Made by a program: the position numbers and the translations under genes. This document shows positions 952 through 31,732 of a stretch of 45,169 nt of DNA, piece by piece; position 1 is the first letter of the stretch, and every line of letters starts with the position of its first letter. Source of the stretch: Nitrososphaerota archaeon (GTDB lineage Archaea; Thermoproteota; Nitrososphaeria; Nitrososphaerales; Nitrosopumilaceae); the NCBI GenBank assembly GCA_027315065.1, contig DAHUYT010000014.1, positions 239 through 45,407 on the forward strand. The letters are read 5' to 3'. The notes beneath the pieces were generated by a model. The model searched no databases and was not told where the DNA came from. It saw only the letters and a program-made list of their open reading frames with translations.

Positions 952-1632
952 ATGGATATCCAGACGCCATCGATAACAGAGGCAAGAGACGGGCTAGCAT
1001 TTGCCCAGGCGCTGCCGCCAAAGATAGTATACAGCGTAAAAAATGACGCGGTTCCGATTGCCGGCTCGGAGCAGACTGCATACAGGAGGCTGCGCCTGCT
1101 AAGATCGCTTGGCCTTGCCAGTTTCAGAAACGGCCTTTTTAATATAAACAGGGAAGCGGCAATGCAGCCGCTCTTTGTAGTGGCAAAACTTTTTCCTTCA
1201 TTGATATCATTGAGACAAGCGCGACGGTTCGGCAAATTTTACAATGACTCTGACATCAGGTATGCCAGAAATTCAATGAGAGGTGCAATCGTAACTTTGG
1301 ACTTTGATGCGTGGGATCTCACAGGCTTCCAGACGCCGTCAGATCTGTACCTATACGTGGACGATGTAGCAAAGTCTGCCAAGCTGCTCAGAGACCGCGG
1401 CTTTAGCGAGGGAAGGAAGGGCCGCGTGGTACTTCTTCCAAAAAGAGGCGATTTTACAGACAAGGTAAACAGAACTTATCTTGACTGTATTGCAAGGGGT
1501 GGCAGGAGCATCTACGATGCAATAGCAATAGAGCTGCTATACCACGACAGGATACCGGTAAAGGGCAACTTTCCCGTTGAATATATTTTAAAGGTACAGC
1601 AGGAGATGGACCAAAGCAGGTTTAAGGATTGA
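952..1632 (+). CDS. AbiEi-like winged-helix antitoxin/autoregulator
   Basis: A 226-residue protein directly upstream of, and overlapping by 4 nt, a nucleotidyltransferase gene. The N-terminal third looks like a winged helix (IAGSEQTAYRRLRLLRSLGLASFRNGLFNINRE, seen as QTAYRRLRLLRSLGLASF then a basic wing). The rest is an uncharacterised alpha/beta region. Gene order, overlap and HTH content match type IV TA operons of the AbiE kind, where AbiEi represses the operon and neutralises the AbiEii toxin. The palindrome at 901-920 is the likely binding site. ATG 952 is supported by TATA spacing. Similarity to AbiEi is by architecture; I cannot align it to a specific family from memory. It could also be a plain transcriptional regulator of the second gene. 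Confidence 0.65.
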   Translation: MDIQTPSITEARDGLAFAQALPPKIVYSVKNDAVPIAGSEQTAYRRLRLLRSLGLASFRNGLFNINREAAMQPLFVVAKLFPSLISLRQARRFGKFYNDSDIRYARNSMRGAIVTLDFDAWDLTGFQTPSDLYLYVDDVAKSAKLLRDRGFSEGRKGRVVLLPKRGDFTDKVNRTYLDCIARGGRSIYDAIAIELLYHDRIPVKGNFPVEYILKVQQEMDQSRFKD

Positions 1633-2141
1633 AGCAGCTGGCGCGCGAGGCCCTTCTTGTCACACAGGACTTGGGCCGTGTCATTTTCATAGGAGCTATA
1701 GCAAGATATTTTCACACCAATGTATACAGAGAGTCCAAAGATCTGGACTTTGTCGTAGAAAAACCGGTCTCAAAAAAAGCATTAAACGATAAGGGGTACA
1801 ACCAATTTGAGAGAAACGGCAAGCTCGAATGGTTTTCTCCCCGAGGAATCAAGCTTGACATCTACTCAAGGGATGTAAGCGGCATTCCAGTCAGGAAAAT
1901 AATTGACACCGCGATAGAGTTTCCTGCAGGCAGGAGCAAGGAAAGGATACTGGTCATGAGTCTAGAGTCGCTCATAGTGGCAAAACACCGGGCTCAAAGG
2001 GCAGGCGATGTAGAGGATCTACACATCATAGCGAACACAAAGTCTAGGGATATACGGTGGGACCTTCTGAGGACCTTCACAAAAAGCAAGCACGAGTATG
2101 ATTCCATTAGGACCGCCATTGGATATTTGTCAAGAGCGTGA
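1629..2141 (+). CDS. AbiEii-like nucleotidyltransferase toxin
   Basis: A 170-residue nucleotidyltransferase-fold protein. The glycine-rich turn is FIGAIARYFHTN (20-31) and the metal-binding acidic pair is in ESKDLDFVVEK (D38, D40), the pattern of the AbiEii/DUF1814-like branch of the DNA polymerase beta superfamily. LESLIVAKHRAQRAGDVEDLHII near the C-terminus matches the conserved lysine/arginine plus D-x-x-D-L helix of this group. The family transfers nucleotides to RNA or protein targets and can arrest growth. Translation probably starts at the TTG at 1629, which overlaps the stop of the upstream gene (TTGA), consistent with translational coupling. It is shorter than classical AbiEii (about 300 residues), so this is a minimal version. 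Confidence 0.75.
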   Translation: MKQLAREALLVTQDLGRVIFIGAIARYFHTNVYRESKDLDFVVEKPVSKKALNDKGYNQFERNGKLEWFSPRGIKLDIYSRDVSGIPVRKIIDTAIEFPAGRSKERILVMSLESLIVAKHRAQRAGDVEDLHIIANTKSRDIRWDLLRTFTKSKHEYDSIRTAIGYLSRA

Positions 2142-3648: not shown

Positions 3649-4002
3649 TTATTCTGCCCATAGTATAGAGTCTTGGGCATCGTTGGCATCCATCAGATCA
3701 GGCTGGTATTCCGAGGCATTCTTTTTGTCCATCAGATTGGTAAACTGTTTTCGCATGTCTTCATATTCCCTAGGAGAGAGTATTCCCTGAACAATCAAGA
3801 GTGATTCGTTGTGGTCATCTGATCCGCGTTTGCCTTTAAACGAACAGGTTAACGCATCAAGTGTACTTGTTCCACAATGGACCGCATTTGCCACTGTGCT
3901 GTTATACAAGTTATTTTTTAGCGAGCCTTTGGCTGTTTTGAGAAACTCCTCTGCTTTTATGATATAGTTCGGCCCTTTTGACGAGTCTACCGATCGTGCC
4001 AT
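3649..4002 (-). CDS. HEPN-domain protein, probable RNase toxin
   Basis: A 117-residue all-helical protein of the HEPN superfamily. Characteristic features are the helix IIKAEEFLKTAKGSLKNNLYNSTVANAVHCG, the STLDALT turn, and the RX4H catalytic motif KRGSDDH (R59, H64) found in HEPN ribonucleases. The tail (NLMDKKNASEYQPDLMDANDAQ) has the usual aromatic-Pro pattern of these proteins. Such proteins cut RNA and are usually paired with a nucleotidyltransferase. Here the gene before it on the same strand survives only as a fragment: its stop codon TAG directly abuts this ATG (4003-4005). The partner therefore seems lost or replaced by the adjoining inserted element. Confidence 0.8.
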   Translation of the reverse strand: MARSVDSSKGPNYIIKAEEFLKTAKGSLKNNLYNSTVANAVHCGTSTLDALTCSFKGKRGSDDHNESLLIVQGILSPREYEDMRKQFTNLMDKKNASEYQPDLMDANDAQDSILWAE

Positions 4003-4147
4003 CTATGAAACTCCTAACTTTTTGTCACATACTAGAATGTGGTTTTCAATGATTGACTGTACCAGAGATCGTCTGATATGTGCCATATTGTAGGCACGCT
4101 CTTCTTGTATTTTTTCACAATATAATGGAGAGTTCGTGATCAAGATC
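4003..4147 (-). pseudogene. C-terminal fragment of a gene cut by the inserted element
   Basis: Reading left from the 63-bp repeat, an open frame gives NSPLYCEKIQEERAYNM, then AHIRRSLVQSIIENHILV, then CDKKLGVS and a TAG that touches the HEPN start codon. The composition is protein-like and the frame stays open until it enters the direct repeat, where no start is available. I take it as the tail of the HEPN partner gene, truncated when the neighbouring element arrived. No family can be assigned from about 45 residues. Confidence 0.5.
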
Positions 4148-4191
4148 TGTTTCTATTCATAAAGTTAGGCAGAATTGTTAATTTTGGGATA
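4129..4191 (+). repeat. 63-bp direct repeat, left copy
   Basis: Identical over 63 bp to 5630-5692. It begins AGAGTTCGTGATCAAG and ends AATTTTGGGATA. Weaker similarity continues about 10 bp outward (CAATATAATG here, CAACATAATG in the right copy). It lies immediately upstream of the promoter of the gene at 4224. Confidence 0.95.
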
Positions 4192-4223
4192 GGCTCTAAA
4201 TAGCCAAATTGGTGGGAATTATT

Positions 4224-5216
4224 ATGGTTTCCTCATATGATCTCTTTACCGAAATTGTCAGGTGTGCTTTTCTAGGAGGAAACCAGATAATTGACTCCAG
4301 GACACACATGCTAGAGCCTACGTTGCTGAGGAAATACGATCTATTAAGAAAGTCGCCTGAATTTGGCTCAAAAACAGGTATGAATTATCTTTTTTCCAAT
4401 TTATCATCTGATTTTACAACAACTGCGAAAAGTGAACTTTACAGAAAAGCAGGAGGTTGGATAGACAAGAGTTACGATGAGAGAAAAGTCAAACAGTTCC
4501 AAATTGATAAAGATATTTTTCTTGTACCAATACTGAGTAAGCCTGCGGTTGGAATCGACACGAGTAGTAACGATGAGGATACTTTTGTCTGCTTTGCTTT
4601 TTTTGATAATTATAAAGCGGCATATCATTATTTTGAAAAGTTTCTAAAAATTCCAAAAACCAAAACCTCAAGACCAGAATTCAAGTGGAATAAACTCGGT
4701 CCAGAGTGTAGAGATCTATTAGATCAAAATCTAGAGTACATACTTGGTATGTCGTGCGAGTTTGTTCTAATCCTGAAAACCAACGCACTTAAGAAACCTG
4801 AAGAGAAACCTGTCGATATTTTCATAAAGCTTATTGAAGGATGTTTCTCTAACTACGAATACAAGTTAGAATCCCGCCTTAAATTAAGAAGTAAAATCTT
4901 CAAACTGTCTAATGACGTACCAATACATTGTGATGCAGATTTTTCACCCTTGACGCCAGATAAGATAGTCAAACAATTTGTGAAAATATTAGCATCTGAA
5001 AATGAGCATACACCGTTACACGCAGAAAAAGACTCACATGAATCAGAACCTATTCAAGTTACCGATATTCTCTGTGGCATATTAAAAGAGTGTATTCTGA
5101 ATAGAAAACGTGATAGTTTGGTTTCTTGGGAATTTCACAATAAACTAAAAAGCAAAACTAAAGAACGTCGTGCTAAGTGTTATTATTGGGAAAGAAGAGA
5201 GATTTCCTCAAGTTAA
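4224..5216 (+). CDS. Unknown protein of the inserted element
   Basis: A 330-residue soluble protein with no family I can name. The ATG at 4224 is preferred over a TTG at 4209 because the TATA-like CTAAATAG (about 4196-4203) sits some 25 bp upstream, fitting a leaderless transcript. Visible features are an acidic stretch GIDTSSNDEDTFVCFAFFDN near residue 115, a basic helical region, PIHCDADFSPLTPDKIVKQF near residue 235, and a strongly basic C-terminus (KLKSKTKERRAKCYYWERRE), which suggests nucleic-acid binding. The spaced acidic residues and length loosely recall DUF3800-type RNase-H-like proteins, a weak hypothesis only. It is A+T-rich compared with neighbours, which suggests transfer. It is the only gene in the element and lies just upstream of the structured tandem repeats. 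Confidence 0.6.
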   Translation: MVSSYDLFTEIVRCAFLGGNQIIDSRTHMLEPTLLRKYDLLRKSPEFGSKTGMNYLFSNLSSDFTTTAKSELYRKAGGWIDKSYDERKVKQFQIDKDIFLVPILSKPAVGIDTSSNDEDTFVCFAFFDNYKAAYHYFEKFLKIPKTKTSRPEFKWNKLGPECRDLLDQNLEYILGMSCEFVLILKTNALKKPEEKPVDIFIKLIEGCFSNYEYKLESRLKLRSKIFKLSNDVPIHCDADFSPLTPDKIVKQFVKILASENEHTPLHAEKDSHESEPIQVTDILCGILKECILNRKRDSLVSWEFHNKLKSKTKERRAKCYYWERREISSS

Positions 5217-5232
5217 ATTCAATTAGACAAAA

Positions 5233-5312
5233 AGGCGAGGTTTACCGTGTGTCTATTTGCGCAGACGTTACTGCCTATGGCAATCCCGTGACCTGCTGGG
5301 CAAACATCGCCT
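5233..5312. ncRNA. Structured repeat unit 1: conserved core in a paired stem
   Basis: A 59-bp core (5245-5303) identical to 5396-5454 sits inside an inverted repeat. The left arm AGGCGAGGTTTACC (5233-5246) pairs with the right arm GGCAAACATCGCCT (5299-5312) with two mismatches. Inside the core, GTCT/AGAC, TGCC-TAT-GGCA and GTTAC/GTGAC (with a wobble) can form further helices. The outer arm differs in sequence from unit 2 but pairs equally, the signature of a structure kept by selection. Strand and function are unknown; a transcribed RNA is more likely than a DNA cruciform, but both are possible. Confidence 0.5.
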
Positions 5313-5335
5313 GTTATACATATAGTAAAGATACG

Positions 5336-5367
5336 ATATAAACTAGTATCTGGTATTTTTTCCAGAT
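5336..5367. repeat. Unit 1 tail: shared 20-mer with ATCTGG/CCAGAT hairpin
   Basis: ATATAAACTAGTATCTGGTA (5336-5355) matches 5483-5502 at 19 of 20 positions. It runs into an inverted repeat ATCTGG (5348-5353) / CCAGAT (5362-5367) whose 8-nt loop is mostly T. It could be a TATA element with an operator, or a terminator-like hairpin closing unit 1. Confidence 0.5.
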
Positions 5368-5388
5368 CTTCATGAGAGAATGTGAAAA

Positions 5389-5458
5389 GCTGTTGCCGTG
5401 TGTCTATTTGCGCAGACGTTACTGCCTATGGCAATCCCGTGACCTGCTGGGCAACAGC
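5389..5458. ncRNA. Structured repeat unit 2: same core, different paired stem
   Basis: The core 5396-5454 is identical to unit 1 over 59 bp. Its closing stem is GCTGTTGCC (5389-5397) with GGCAACAGC (5450-5458), nine perfect pairs. Outside the innermost CC/GG pairs, the stem bases differ from unit 1 on both sides, so the change is compensatory. Unit spacing is 151 bp. The core does not match hammerhead, HDV, twister or cobalamin signatures that I know. Short peptides such as CVYLRRRYCLWQSRDLLGN can be read through the core in one frame, but the flanks do not keep a common frame. Confidence 0.5.
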
Positions 5459-5482
5459 CAGGTGTTCATACCTTGATGAAAC

Positions 5483-5515
5483 ATATAAAATAGTATCTGG
5501 TAGAACTACCAGATA
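5483..5515. repeat. Unit 2 tail: shared 20-mer with TATCTGGTA hairpin
   Basis: The counterpart of the unit 1 tail. Here the inverted repeat is longer and perfect: TATCTGGTA (5494-5502), loop GAAC, TACCAGATA (5507-5515). The loop and arm length differ from unit 1 while ATCTGG/CCAGAT is kept, again favouring a conserved hairpin or operator. Confidence 0.5.
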
Positions 5516-5629: not shown

Positions 5630-5692
5630 AGAGTTCGTGATCAAGATCTGTTTCTATTCATAAAGTTAGGCAGAATTGTTAATTTTGGGATA
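5630..5692 (+). repeat. 63-bp direct repeat, right copy
   Basis: Identical to 4129-4191. Its outer end (5692/5693) coincides with the point where the HEPN reading frame to the right loses similarity to its family, marking the element boundary. A perfect 7-bp hairpin (TTGAATT/AATTCAA, 5600-5618) lies just inside. Confidence 0.95.
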
Positions 5693-5805: not shown

Positions 5806-6417
5806 CTAACTAAATCTTCTCGGCTTTTCACCATACAAAACCTCTCCGTTTGCATGAATCCCTATTATCAAAGGATCGTTTTCTAGTCTCTGCAAGTATT
5901 CTTTGACAGACATGACTATTGGATAAATCACAATACCATAACCTACGCTTATTTTCATGGTGACAAAGTCAAGAAGATCTTTTTTTATTACTTCATTGTT
6001 ATCTTGTGAAAGTACGAGTATGTCTATATCGCTTGGTTCCCTTACAATGTTGCTTCTCATCCTGCCTTTTGCCAGACTGCCAAACAGTATAACCGCTTTT
6101 ACCCTGTGATTTTTTACTGTGCGTCTGATCACCTTGCGTGCTATCTCTATGTAGACGCTTTTCAGGTCCTTAAACAGAGTCTTCAGAGATTTGTAAAGAA
6201 AATGACTACGGTTTATCTGATACACCTTAGCCTTGCCAACTCTGCATTGTAACTAATCCAGAGTTGACTAGATCCCCATCTGTCTGTTCATCTCCGAGAC
6301 CGAAGAGCCTGCATCTTTAGCCAGCTCCATCTCAAGAATTTTTCTGTCTGGCTTTTCGATTAACACCGATAAAGCATTAACCTTTGTTTTGTTGTCTAAT
6401 ATTCTATCCAAATACAT
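5806..6417 (-). pseudogene. wHTH-nucleotidyltransferase fusion with internal frame damage
   Basis: Two pieces in the same frame form one ancestral protein. The piece from ATG 6417 encodes the first half of a winged helix (MYLDRILDNKTKVNALSVL...MNRQM). The piece ending at 5806 encodes YQINRSHFLYKS and an MNT domain with GSLAKGRMRSN and PSDIDILV (metal Asp pair). Between them the shared frame holds two TAG codons (6268-6270 and about 6256). In a shifted frame the same bases read DLVNSGLVTMQ, exactly the missing recognition-helix/wing segment, followed by RVGKAKVYQINRS back in the original frame. Thus a one-base loss in a G run near 6274 and a one-base gain near 6245 offset each other. A 139-codon nucleotidyltransferase could still start at GTG 6225. 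Its HEPN partner is also broken. Confidence 0.75.
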
Positions 6418-6594: not shown

Positions 6595-6999
6595 TTAAAG
6601 ATCGCTAGTTTTCATGACCTTAACATAGTTTCTTGCTGCCCTCTCAAGTTCACGGTCGTCGGTTACCAGTACGAGGCCTAATTTTTCTGCAACTGTAAGA
6701 TAGGAGGCATCATAAGCGGTCAGTCCTTCTTTTGTAGCAAGCTCCTGCACACGTTTTTCCAGTCCTTTGATGTTAACTATATCCATGCGTTGTATCAAAA
6801 GCAGAATGGAATCAAGCAATACCGAGGATTGCTCTGCTGTGATCTTTTTTTCACGATATGAGAGTTTCCAGATGACATTTGATATTTCATAAAGAGTCAA
6901 GTCCAAGAGATGCTGCCTTTCCAGAATCCTTATCGATTGCGATTCCTTGTTTCTTACAACATTTAAAAGAGAACTTGCGTCAAAAAGCCTATCTTTCAT
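6595..6999 (-). CDS. vapC: VapC-type PIN-domain ribonuclease toxin
   Basis: A 134-residue PIN domain. The four acidic positions of the active site are visible: RLFDASSLLN (D7), YEISNVIWK (E38), TAYDASYL (D near 99) and LVTDDRELE (D near 117). PIN toxins bind Mg2+ and cut tRNA or rRNA. The ATG at 6999 lies inside the end of the vapB gene (11-nt overlap), so the two are translationally coupled. Length is normal for VapC. Confidence 0.88.
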   Translation of the reverse strand: MKDRLFDASSLLNVVRNKESQSIRILERQHLLDLTLYEISNVIWKLSYREKKITAEQSSVLLDSILLLIQRMDIVNIKGLEKRVQELATKEGLTAYDASYLTVAEKLGLVLVTDDRELERAARNYVKVMKTSDL

Positions 7000-7216
7000 T
7001 TCTTGAGGATCGTACTGCCTTTACAATCTCGTTGCTACTAACATTTTTCCGCAATACACGGCCTATCTTATCGAGATCCTTTGAAAGGCTTTCCTCCTCG
7101 ATTTTTCTTATCTCGTTTTCTATGGCTTTTCTTACAACCTCGCTTATCTTCAAGTGGTGCATCCTTGCTTTTTTTCTCAGCTCGTCTGATATCTTTGCCG
7201 AAACTACCGTGGTCAC
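6989..7216 (-). CDS. vapB: VapB-type antitoxin
   Basis: A 75-residue protein with an N-terminal ribbon-helix-helix-like segment (TTVVSAKISDELRKKARMHHLKISEVVRKAIENEI) and a charged C-terminal tail that would wrap the toxin. It starts at GTG 7216. A TATA box on the minus strand (CTTATATGG, 7238-7246) lies about 26 bp upstream, fitting a leaderless mRNA. It represses its own operon through the palindrome at 7218-7238, by analogy with the family. Confidence 0.82.
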   Translation of the reverse strand: MTTVVSAKISDELRKKARMHHLKISEVVRKAIENEIRKIEEESLSKDLDKIGRVLRKNVSSNEIVKAVRSSRNER

Positions 7217-7350: not shown

Positions 7351-7761
7351 TTAGACCACATAGTCCTTCAGATGTACTGCATTTTGTGCTACCTCAAAGA
7401 GTCTTCGGTCAGCTGTAAGCAGCGGTATTTTACGCATCGCTGATATCTGTACATACACAGCATCATAGTATGTAACACCGATATCTCTTGCCAGCTTCAT
7501 TGACTGACTGGCAGCTTCAGAATCAAGTGTTACTAGTTCTATCTCTATCGCAAGAAAAGACTCTACTGCTTTTATGCTATCACCAAGGTCTAGACTCTTG
7601 TTCTTCCATACAGAGTTTCCAACCTCATACAGAATATGTTGTGGTGCACAAAGATCTATCTTTCCACCTAAAAATGCGTCCCTTACTCTTACTGCCTTGT
7701 CTGTGAAATCCTCATTTGAAAACCATTTTACAGCAACGCTTGCATCTAGAACAAATCTCAA
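7351..7761 (-). CDS. vapC: VapC-type PIN-domain ribonuclease toxin
   Basis: A 136-residue PIN domain with MRFVLDASVAVKWF (D6), HILYEVGNSVWK (E46), VTYYDAVYVQ (D about 99) and LLTADRRLFE (D about 117). It starts at TTG 7761, overlapping the vapB stop by 4 nt (TTGA). It is only distantly similar to the PIN protein at 6595-6999, so the two VapBC pairs are not a recent tandem duplication. Upstream 7217-7350 is an A+T-rich intergenic stretch. Confidence 0.88.
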   Translation of the reverse strand: MRFVLDASVAVKWFSNEDFTDKAVRVRDAFLGGKIDLCAPQHILYEVGNSVWKNKSLDLGDSIKAVESFLAIEIELVTLDSEAASQSMKLARDIGVTYYDAVYVQISAMRKIPLLTADRRLFEVAQNAVHLKDYVV

Positions 7762-7979
7762 GTATCACGGTCCTCTCTGACAGAGGTAGCAGCATCAAAG
7801 CCACCATACTTTGTCTTTGCCCTTATCTCATCCATGGAATGTGCTGCCTTTCTTTGCCTCTCCTCGCTTATCCTACGTCTTATGGTATCACGTATGTATT
7901 GGGACCAGTCAATATCGATCTTTTTCATGTCTTCTTTTATCTCCTTACTTATCCTAACGCTGAGGCTTGAGCTGTTCAT
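7758..7979 (-). CDS. vapB: VapB-type ribbon-helix-helix antitoxin
   Basis: A 73-residue antitoxin: MNSSSLSVRISKEIKEDM gives the DNA-binding strand and first helix, DWSQYIRDTIRRRISEERQ the second helix, and the tail ends GGFDAATSVREDRDT. ATG 7979 is preferred over an in-frame ATG at 7997 because the MNSSSLSVRIS start matches the family and the upstream codons (CNTYY) do not. It partners the adjoining VapC. Confidence 0.8.
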   Translation of the reverse strand: MNSSSLSVRISKEIKEDMKKIDIDWSQYIRDTIRRRISEERQRKAAHSMDEIRAKTKYGGFDAATSVREDRDT

Positions 7980-7984
7980 ATAAT

Positions 7985-8032
7985 ATGTATTACACATCAG
8001 TATTCATAAATGTATTGCATTTATGTATTACA
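7985..8032. promoter_or_regulatory. Operator region of second vapBC
   Basis: CATAAATG (8005-8012) and CATTTATG (8018-8025) form a perfect inverted repeat with a 5-bp spacer. Three direct copies of ATGTATT start at 7985, 8010 and 8023, and TGTATTACA occurs at 7986-7994 and 8024-8032. This dense array lies over the likely promoter of the vapB gene starting at 7979. Confidence 0.55.
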
Positions 8033-8215: not shown

Positions 8216-8806
8216 ATGTACCAGTCGCTAAAAAAAGACACGGGTTTTGTAATCAAGACAGCGATATTGTTTTGCGCTCTCTCTGCAGCGTTTTCCTTTG
8301 TAGGAATGCTCTTGCCAGAAAAAGGACCCCTCCAAAACCCAAGCGGCGGACTGAACATGCACGAGATCTCAGGGCACATCCTCTGGGGACTGGTTGCAGG
8401 CGCAGCTTTTCTTAGCCTAAGATATGTAATCATCACAGGCCTCTTTGCGGTACTCATTGATTCAGATCACCTCATTGCACTGCTGCATGTTGATGCTCTG
8501 TCAAGAATGTCACACTCACTAGCATTTGGCGCAATTGCAGTTGTAGTATTGATGGCGCTTTTTGGAAGAAAAGACTACAGGCTTGGCGCAGCAGCCTTTG
8601 CAGGGATACTATCACACCTCTCCTTTGACACATTTGCGGGAAATGACGGCAAGTTTCCATTATTTACACCGCTTTACAACCGCCCCATCATATTTCCAAA
8701 CCAGGACTGGATCTATTTTGAGGTTGCAGCGGTTGTAATAGTTGGAATTGTGACCATCCTAGCAAGAAGAAAGGAAATGCAGGTACAGAACACAATTACA
8801 AAATAA
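8216..8806 (+). CDS. YdjM/DUF457-like membrane metal-dependent hydrolase, intact copy
   Basis: A 196-residue polytopic membrane protein. Conserved metal-ligand-like motifs sit in loops: HEISGHILWG (about 48-57), LIDSDHLIALLH (about 81-92), SRMSH and ILSHLSFDTFAGN. The pattern H-x3-GH, D-x-DH, SH-x2-FD is that of the YdjM/DUF457/DUF4184 group of predicted membrane-bound hydrolases. Hydrophobic segments near residues 12-32, 52-80, 95-115 and 170-186 supply the membrane spans. One further near-complete copy and two remnants lie at 26.1, 31.3 and 10.1 kb. Similarity to the 26.1-kb copy continues about 80 bp past the stop. The physiological role of the family is unclear. Confidence 0.8.
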   Translation: MYQSLKKDTGFVIKTAILFCALSAAFSFVGMLLPEKGPLQNPSGGLNMHEISGHILWGLVAGAAFLSLRYVIITGLFAVLIDSDHLIALLHVDALSRMSHSLAFGAIAVVVLMALFGRKDYRLGAAAFAGILSHLSFDTFAGNDGKFPLFTPLYNRPIIFPNQDWIYFEVAAVVIVGIVTILARRKEMQVQNTITK

Positions 8807-31261: not shown

Positions 31262-31732
31262 AGGTAATTTTTACCATTGTCCCAGTCGTTAAAAAAAGAT
31301 GCAATCTTTGTAATCAAGATAGCAGACGATTATGTGTACTCAGCATGTTGACGCGCTGTCAAGAATGTAGCATTCGATAGCGTTTGGTGCAGTCGCAGTT
31401 GTAGTTTTAATGGCGGTTTTTGGAAGAAAAGACTACAGGTTGGTGCAGCAGCAATTGCATGGGTACTCTCACACATCTTCTTTGATACATTTGCAGGCAG
31501 TGACGGCAAGTTCCCATTGTTTACACCGTTTTACAGCCGCCAAATTGTATTTCAAAACATTGACTGGCTCCATTTCGAGGTAGCAGTTGTTATCATAGTT
31601 GGATTTGTAACCATCACAGCAAACATGGTCAAGAAAGATTCAGACAAGCGCCTAAAGGGTACCAAGAAACCCAAAAGGAGAAAGGGTTCAAACAGCTTAG
31701 CAGATATACCATCAGCCACAAAAATGAGCTGA
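31262..31732 (+). pseudogene. YdjM-like hydrolase, third copy, decayed
   Basis: The start region (TTAAAAAAAGATGCAATCTT) and leader match the 26.1-kb copy. About 200 bp of the middle, including the HEISGH and D-x-DH motifs, are deleted near 31335, and stops and frameshifts follow. The last part (MFTPFYSRQIVFQNIDWLHF) is still open but has a different lysine-rich C-terminus (RLKGTKKPKRRKGSNSLAD). A separate 71-codon product from 31517 is unlikely to be functional. Confidence 0.85.

Follow-up and report, generated by a model that had tools for sequence, protein, structure and literature searches.

DUF3800 proteins (PF12686) have been described as RNase H-fold nucleases that accompany putative non-coding RNAs and some of the CRISPR loci (PMC10910872, PMC12669027), and the RNase H-like fold of the family is taken here from the former source (PMC10910872). 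Some of the RNAs that accompany DUF3800 genes are described in Rfam. DUF3800-X RNA (RF02984), ~73-90 nt in length and built on a long closing stem with internal loops, is encoded on the strand opposite to a DUF3800 gene, in tail-to-tail orientation; DUF3800-VI RNA (RF02915) is tied to archaeal DUF3800 genes, is listed as cis-regulatory and sits upstream of them on their own strand. These partner RNAs reportedly entered Rfam from the 2017 work of Weinberg et al., and we know of no function assigned to them in the years since. When 19 canonical DUF3800 loci from the phylum are searched with Rfam, DUF3800-X RNA appears at three, in tail-to-tail position to the gene, and one of these is a separate locus of the genome studied here (L049, Table 1); DUF3800-VI RNA appears at two, upstream of the gene and on its strand. 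A DUF3800 gene with a partner small RNA beside it is therefore an already known kind of system. Additionally, the broken DUF3800 gene of L054 is followed tail-to-tail by GATGATGCCCGTGGATGCGGGGCGGGATGG, which resembles DUF3800-X RNA and scores below the Rfam threshold, and the canonical DUF3800 gene of L050 has, just downstream of it, three or more spacer-separated copies of GCATCTCAAATAGAGAATTGAAA that resemble a CRISPR array.

Type III toxin-antitoxin systems (ToxIN, CptIN and TenpIN) also combine a nuclease-type protein with a repeated structured RNA that outnumbers the protein gene. Their RNA array lies upstream of the toxin gene on the same strand, with a shared promoter and a terminator before the toxin (PMC8860590).

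Here, we describe a locus in a window of 45,169 nucleotides, the whole stretch of DNA that was analysed, from an ammonia-oxidising archaeon related to Candidatus Nitrosotalea. The best overall explanation, which we consider fairly probable, is that the locus encodes a protein-RNA pair of the DUF3800 type, whose RNA binds a predicted nuclease and controls it.

Two predicted small-RNA genes in tandem on the minus strand

A first inspection of the letters alone (the sequence-only reading) had claimed a repeated 59-bp core, and direct comparison confirms it: positions 5245-5303 and 5396-5454 agree without a difference, and over 5242-5303 and 5393-5454 the two copies align across 62 nt with a single mismatch. 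That reading had also held that the outer arms differ in sequence yet pair within each copy, which is likewise the case. Specifically, AGGCGAGGTTTACC pairs with GGCAAACATCGCCT in copy 1, interrupted by G.A and A.C oppositions, and GCTGTTGCC pairs perfectly with GGCAACAGC in copy 2. Because the two window copies alone amount to one covariation event, the case for a conserved structure rests on homologues.

The unit had been placed at 5233-5458; the repeats in this interval are real, but their own promoters, each a palindrome with a TATA box, extend the unit to 5515, and the functional strand is the minus strand. Compared with dinucleotide shuffles, the minus-strand fold gives z values of -3.6 (copy 1) and -3.9 (copy 2), and the plus-strand fold gives -0.7 and -2.5, respectively. 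Judged from its sequence, the interval 5228-5515 is two tandem small-RNA genes on the minus strand, each with a palindrome, a TATA promoter and a T-run (Table 1). Since every copy has its own promoter and T-run, each represents a complete small gene; no sign of a read-through array is seen. A plus-strand RNA is excluded by the asymmetry between G-U and A-C oppositions described below, by the orientation of the promoters and by the T-runs.

Table 1. Features of the locus in window coordinates, followed by the DUF3800-X locus found elsewhere in the same genome (G000)
Feature	Position	Strand	Details
Left copy of exact 63-bp direct repeat bracketing gene and RNAs	4129-4191	.	two copies only in genome
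DUF3800-like protein gene	4224-5216	+	330 aa from ATG; in-frame TTG at 4209
T5 run immediately behind the 3' stem of RNA 1; probably an archaeal terminator	5228-5232	-	sequence; T4-T7 also in genus relatives
Predicted small RNA gene 1	5233-5312	-	5' end ~5312, 3' end ~5233; match to covariance model R1 at 5238-5307 (-), 92.5 bits; covariation
TATA box TTTATAT of RNA 1, ~27 nt before 5' end	5336-5342	-	TATA in 52/56 copies
Palindrome ATCTGG-N8-CCAGAT upstream of RNA 1 TATA box	5348-5367	-	46/56 copies vs 0.1% in shuffles
T4 run after RNA 2	5385-5388	-	sequence
Predicted small RNA gene 2	5389-5458	-	5' end ~5458, 3' end ~5389; model R1, 99.2 bits; fold z -3.9
TATA box TTTTATAT of RNA 2	5483-5490	-	
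Palindrome TATCTGG-N8-CCAGATA upstream of RNA 2	5494-5515	-	conserved palindrome; sole other genome site is that of RNA 1
Right copy of exact 63-bp direct repeat	5630-5692	.	
L049 (contig C40): canonical DUF3800 gene	1501-2034	-	tail-to-tail with the RNA
L049 (contig C40): Rfam DUF3800-X RNA	1318-1410	+	tail-to-tail with the gene

A fold conserved over 56 copies and a promoter shared by most of them

A covariance model, R1, built from seven genus-level copies found all distant copies, and a second model, R2, brought the set to 56 RNA copies. This search of archaeal genomes, which the sequence-only reading had proposed as a check, thus reaches several archaeal families, and the fold covaries over the 56 homologous copies, bearing out the claim of a selected structure. 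Read 5' to 3' on the RNA strand, the common fold begins with a closing stem, P1, of 9 pairs (longer in some copies), followed by CA, and continues through P2 (GCRG/CYGC), a 3-nt bulge, P3 (RCG/CGU) and an internal loop, in which GG usually faces AA, to the 6 pairs of P4 and its AGA or AUA end loop; behind P4 runs a single-stranded 3' linker of ~4-15 nt that usually has AC(G) at its end.

Across the 56 copies, standard pairs fill 94.6% of the pair cells versus 81.7% when shuffled, 15 of the 22 pairs show double-sided changes, double-change cells number 146 versus 39 when shuffled, and the covariation score is 0.448, versus 0.207 when shuffled and at most 0.14 for slid structures, all measured on covariance-model alignments, which are biased towards their own structure and were used instead of MAFFT, which misplaced the outer stem of distant copies. 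RNAalifold, run on a 42-copy alignment, recovers essentially the same fold with 20 pairs, 12 of them with double-sided changes. When read on the window minus strand, the alignment holds 111 G-U cells versus 28 A-C cells, an excess which places the RNA on the strand opposite to that of the gene.

The promoter is similarly conserved. The TATA box stands at a consistent upstream position in nearly all copies, compared with 19% in base-shuffled controls, and the palindrome, in its general form TCTGG-N-CCAGA, starts at a fixed spacing of ~25 bp ahead of it. Genome-wide, TATCTGG-N4..10-CCAGAT is present only at the two window RNA promoters. The spacing from the TATA box to the 5' end of the RNA fits archaeal transcription starts, and T-runs lie directly 3' of most RNA stems in genus relatives; a sigma-70 promoter scan is uninformative, the host being an archaeon. 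Given these compensatory changes and this conserved promoter, the probability that the repeats are plain repeated sequence without function is negligible.

Some copies depart from the common plan. At L145 (1501-1584), an RNA copy with an intact gene adjoining bears a long extra hairpin, CATTATCGCTTTCTAACGGAAGCGATG, in place of the P4 loop. In distant relatives (L107, L108, L105 and L032), an extra outer stem, P0, which is absent from the covariance model, closes the RNA; its arms are GUAUGGU or GUAAGGU with ACCUAC or ACCUUAC, with tandem G.A in some.

A distant DUF3800 relative adjoins the RNAs

The gene at 4224-5216 had been taken for an orphan gene, a description that does not survive profile comparison. 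The window protein matches Pfam DUF3800 with 19.4 bits (E 0.0018), below the gathering cut-off of 21 bits; a weak PF12686 match recurs in 10 of 10 family members tested (best E 1e-4), and DUF3800 is the only family matched in Pfam searches of the protein family. Against a profile of twelve archaeal DUF3800 proteins, hhalign gives E 4.8e-7 and a probability of 92.5 over 178 columns, with the alignment lying in the C-terminal region and covering the first Asp and the IQ.AD..AG motif. On this sequence evidence, the gene is a distant DUF3800 relative, distinguished from the family by its score below the cut-off, by ~110 extra N-terminal residues and by a DTS in place of the usual DES motif, a change through which nuclease activity may be altered. 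The conserved residues D112, D237, D239, H272, E273 and D281 are compatible with a putative nuclease site. Additionally, the PADLOC candidate-defence model PDC-M04A matches the protein weakly (E 4e-5). PDB sequence searches returned nothing useful, and AlphaFold, run on 5 close sequences in a shallow alignment, gave an unusable model with a pLDDT of 34.

The RNA accompanies the gene

Within the genus, the RNA is found in 4 of 37 genomes, the window genome included. Each of them has two copies, which directly follow a homologue of the 4224-5216 gene (67-89% identity), just past its stop codon; a further record, L020, has three copies. More distant relatives in other families of the phylum, with ~35-44% protein identity, show the same layout with one to three copies. 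In line with the association that the sequence-only reading had put forward for checking, one to three RNA copies lie on the opposite strand just after the stop codon of every homologue whose 3' end is preserved (14 homologues are full length), and the arrangement is tail-to-tail at all of these loci. Overall, RNA copies are more numerous than the gene. At the 19 canonical DUF3800 loci, R1 and R2 give no significant match; an R2 match at L057 (E 0.39), beside a canonical DUF3800 gene, lies inside an open reading stretch and was judged to be chance. Neither protein nor RNA homologues were found in viral contigs, plasmids or phages. At L133, in a layout seen at no other locus, an intact DUF3800-like gene stands between two RNA copies (373-436 and 1501-1569).

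Computationally, the locus is thus defined by its predicted fold, strand and promoter, its constant gene pairing and its relation to DUF3800, and the repeats are very probably RNA genes that have the 4224-5216 product as their protein partner. It is likely, too, that RNA and protein would associate in a physical complex. On the other hand, convergent transcription, together with RNA 3' ends that abut or overlap the gene 3' end in distant relatives, would also suit RNAs that do not bind the protein and that serve the convergent gene as cis-antisense regulators or as signals for processing its 3' end. We regard this as improbable, since antisense action requires complementarity and not a conserved fold, the covarying fold is independent of the gene, second and third copies lie away from it, and there are orphan RNAs.

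Comparison with described RNA families and systems

The sequence-only reading recognised no known RNA signature in the repeats, and an Rfam search of the window and six homologous loci at curated and relaxed thresholds agrees, with no related family (E up to 3-5). The window RNA is similar to DUF3800-X RNA in size, in its tail-to-tail position on the strand opposite to the gene, in its long closing stem with internal loops and in occurring in archaea, including this very genome. However, the two differ in sequence and loop plan, the window RNA gives no match at the gathering threshold of RF02984, and DUF3800-X loci are not matched significantly by R1 or R2. In addition, the protein belongs to another subfamily than the DUF3800-X partner, with an N-terminal extension of ~100 residues, and the palindrome promoter was not seen in the three DUF3800-X loci inspected. 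DUF3800-VI RNA shares the tie to archaeal DUF3800 genes, but differs in its upstream, same-strand position and its cis-regulatory label in Rfam, and gives no match. The tail-to-tail design therefore recurs with RNA folds unlinked by any model. What the present locus adds is an RNA class undetected by Rfam 15, a distinct protein subfamily, the strand and promoter of the RNA, multi-copy arrays and orphan RNAs.

The suggestion that the repeats are the RNA component of a type III toxin-antitoxin system fails on layout: the window RNAs lie downstream of the gene, on the opposite strand and under their own promoters, and Pfam gives only DUF3800 in place of a ToxN, CptN or TenpN toxin. The type III toxin fold is unrelated to DUF3800. 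As the type III definition does not apply, the system may work like a type III toxin-antitoxin system, to which we do not assign it. Nothing supports the other suggestion, a mobile-element guide RNA; unlike CRISPR or OMEGA guide RNAs, the repeats have no variable guide segment and no array, and their flanks are promoter and gene end.

Orphan RNAs and control of the predicted nuclease

About ten loci carry a well-folded RNA with no detectable gene nearby (L127, L130, L131, L132, L134, L135, L140, L141, L142, L101/L066 and L103). A family-wide protein search finds no gene in these genomes except G207 (L103), where it lies elsewhere; several of them are incomplete MAGs, in which a gene could be missed. 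At L140, L127 and L130, the flank still resembles the last codons of the gene, which indicates that the RNA outlived the gene. Most orphan RNAs retain palindrome and TATA box, L135 and L066 being without promoter, and standard pairs fill 95.0% of cells in orphans versus 94.3% in gene-linked copies. Between L132 and L141, the RNA is 87% and the promoter 79% identical, and identity of the flank drops to 67-52%. L127 and L130 occupy the same site in two species, with promoter-side flanks 98% identical and RNA only 82% identical, a difference that we read as the probable retention of different members of an earlier array. The gene neighbouring L127 and L130 also adjoins L066.

Such retention would fit an RNA that is useful in its own right, for instance by protecting against an incoming nuclease copy, and is suggestive only; the orphans could also be slowly decaying leftovers, two of them having lost or lacked a promoter. 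It bears as well on the main rival to our explanation, in which the RNA does not inhibit the DUF3800-like nuclease but is essential to it as a cofactor or scaffold, activating or targeting it within a defence ribonucleoprotein. This rival accords with the strict gene-RNA pairing, with the weak PADLOC match and with the finding that DUF3800 proteins are accessory nucleases in some CRISPR loci (PMC10910872, PMC12669027). However, an RNA that serves only that nuclease would be useless at the loci that keep it, mostly with its promoter, after the gene is gone, and a guide-like variable segment is missing; we therefore consider an activating role rather unlikely.

In the explanation we favour, a protein-RNA pair in which the RNA controls the nuclease, the small RNAs would be transcribed from the minus strand independently of the gene, starting from their own palindrome and TATA promoters, and would bind the RNase H-fold protein to form a ribonucleoprotein. 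The bound RNA would most likely keep nuclease activity in check in an antitoxin-like manner, and the nuclease might be released during virus attack. The retention of orphan RNAs, the excess of RNA copies and the defence hint from PADLOC lead us to this antitoxin-like reading, and we put inhibition, as opposed to activation, at slightly under an even chance. More tentatively, we propose that the locus may be an archaeal protein-RNA toxin-antitoxin or defence module, in which a nuclease would be restrained by independently transcribed, multi-copy RNAs with a palindrome promoter, and in which the RNA would be kept as an immunity gene after nuclease loss. The concrete prediction is that the protein is restrained by the RNA.

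Flanking repeats and neighbouring genes

The locus had also been described as a mobile-looking element. The exact 63-bp direct repeats around it, found nowhere else in the genome, are the only hint in this direction, and no empty site was found among the 37 genus genomes. The start of a HEPN-like frame (MVKSREDLVRWSMKKSEEYLQSAQNNF...) adjoins the right repeat copy on the minus strand, with its stop inside the repeat; the idea that the unit had inserted into a HEPN gene by way of the 63-bp repeats was considered and rejected, the joined flanks giving no clean open frame. Most other loci have no flanking repeats, and those that are present differ from locus to locus, as with the 36-bp inverted repeats around L019. 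Decaying copies are common in some relatives, with multiple ones in G462 and G207. Spread by horizontal transfer is likely. The patchy distribution, the decaying copies and the direct and inverted repeats would suit a transposable element whose ends or recognition hairpins are the RNA-like repeats and whose RNase H-fold protein acts on DNA. Such an element is quite improbable, given that the repeats lie on one side only and each has a promoter, that flanking repeats vary or are missing, and that the G-U asymmetry points to RNA and not to DNA hairpins.

Assigned by eye, the genes around the unit form a cluster of toxin-antitoxin type genes, at 3649-4002, 5806-6225, 6595-7216 and 7351-7997 (minus), comprising a HEPN-like gene, a nucleotidyltransferase-like gene and two VapC/VapB-like gene pairs. 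Further along, at 8216-8806, lies a membrane-protein gene (metal-dependent-hydrolase-like by eye), of which an apparently similar second copy is seen at ~31300-31400.
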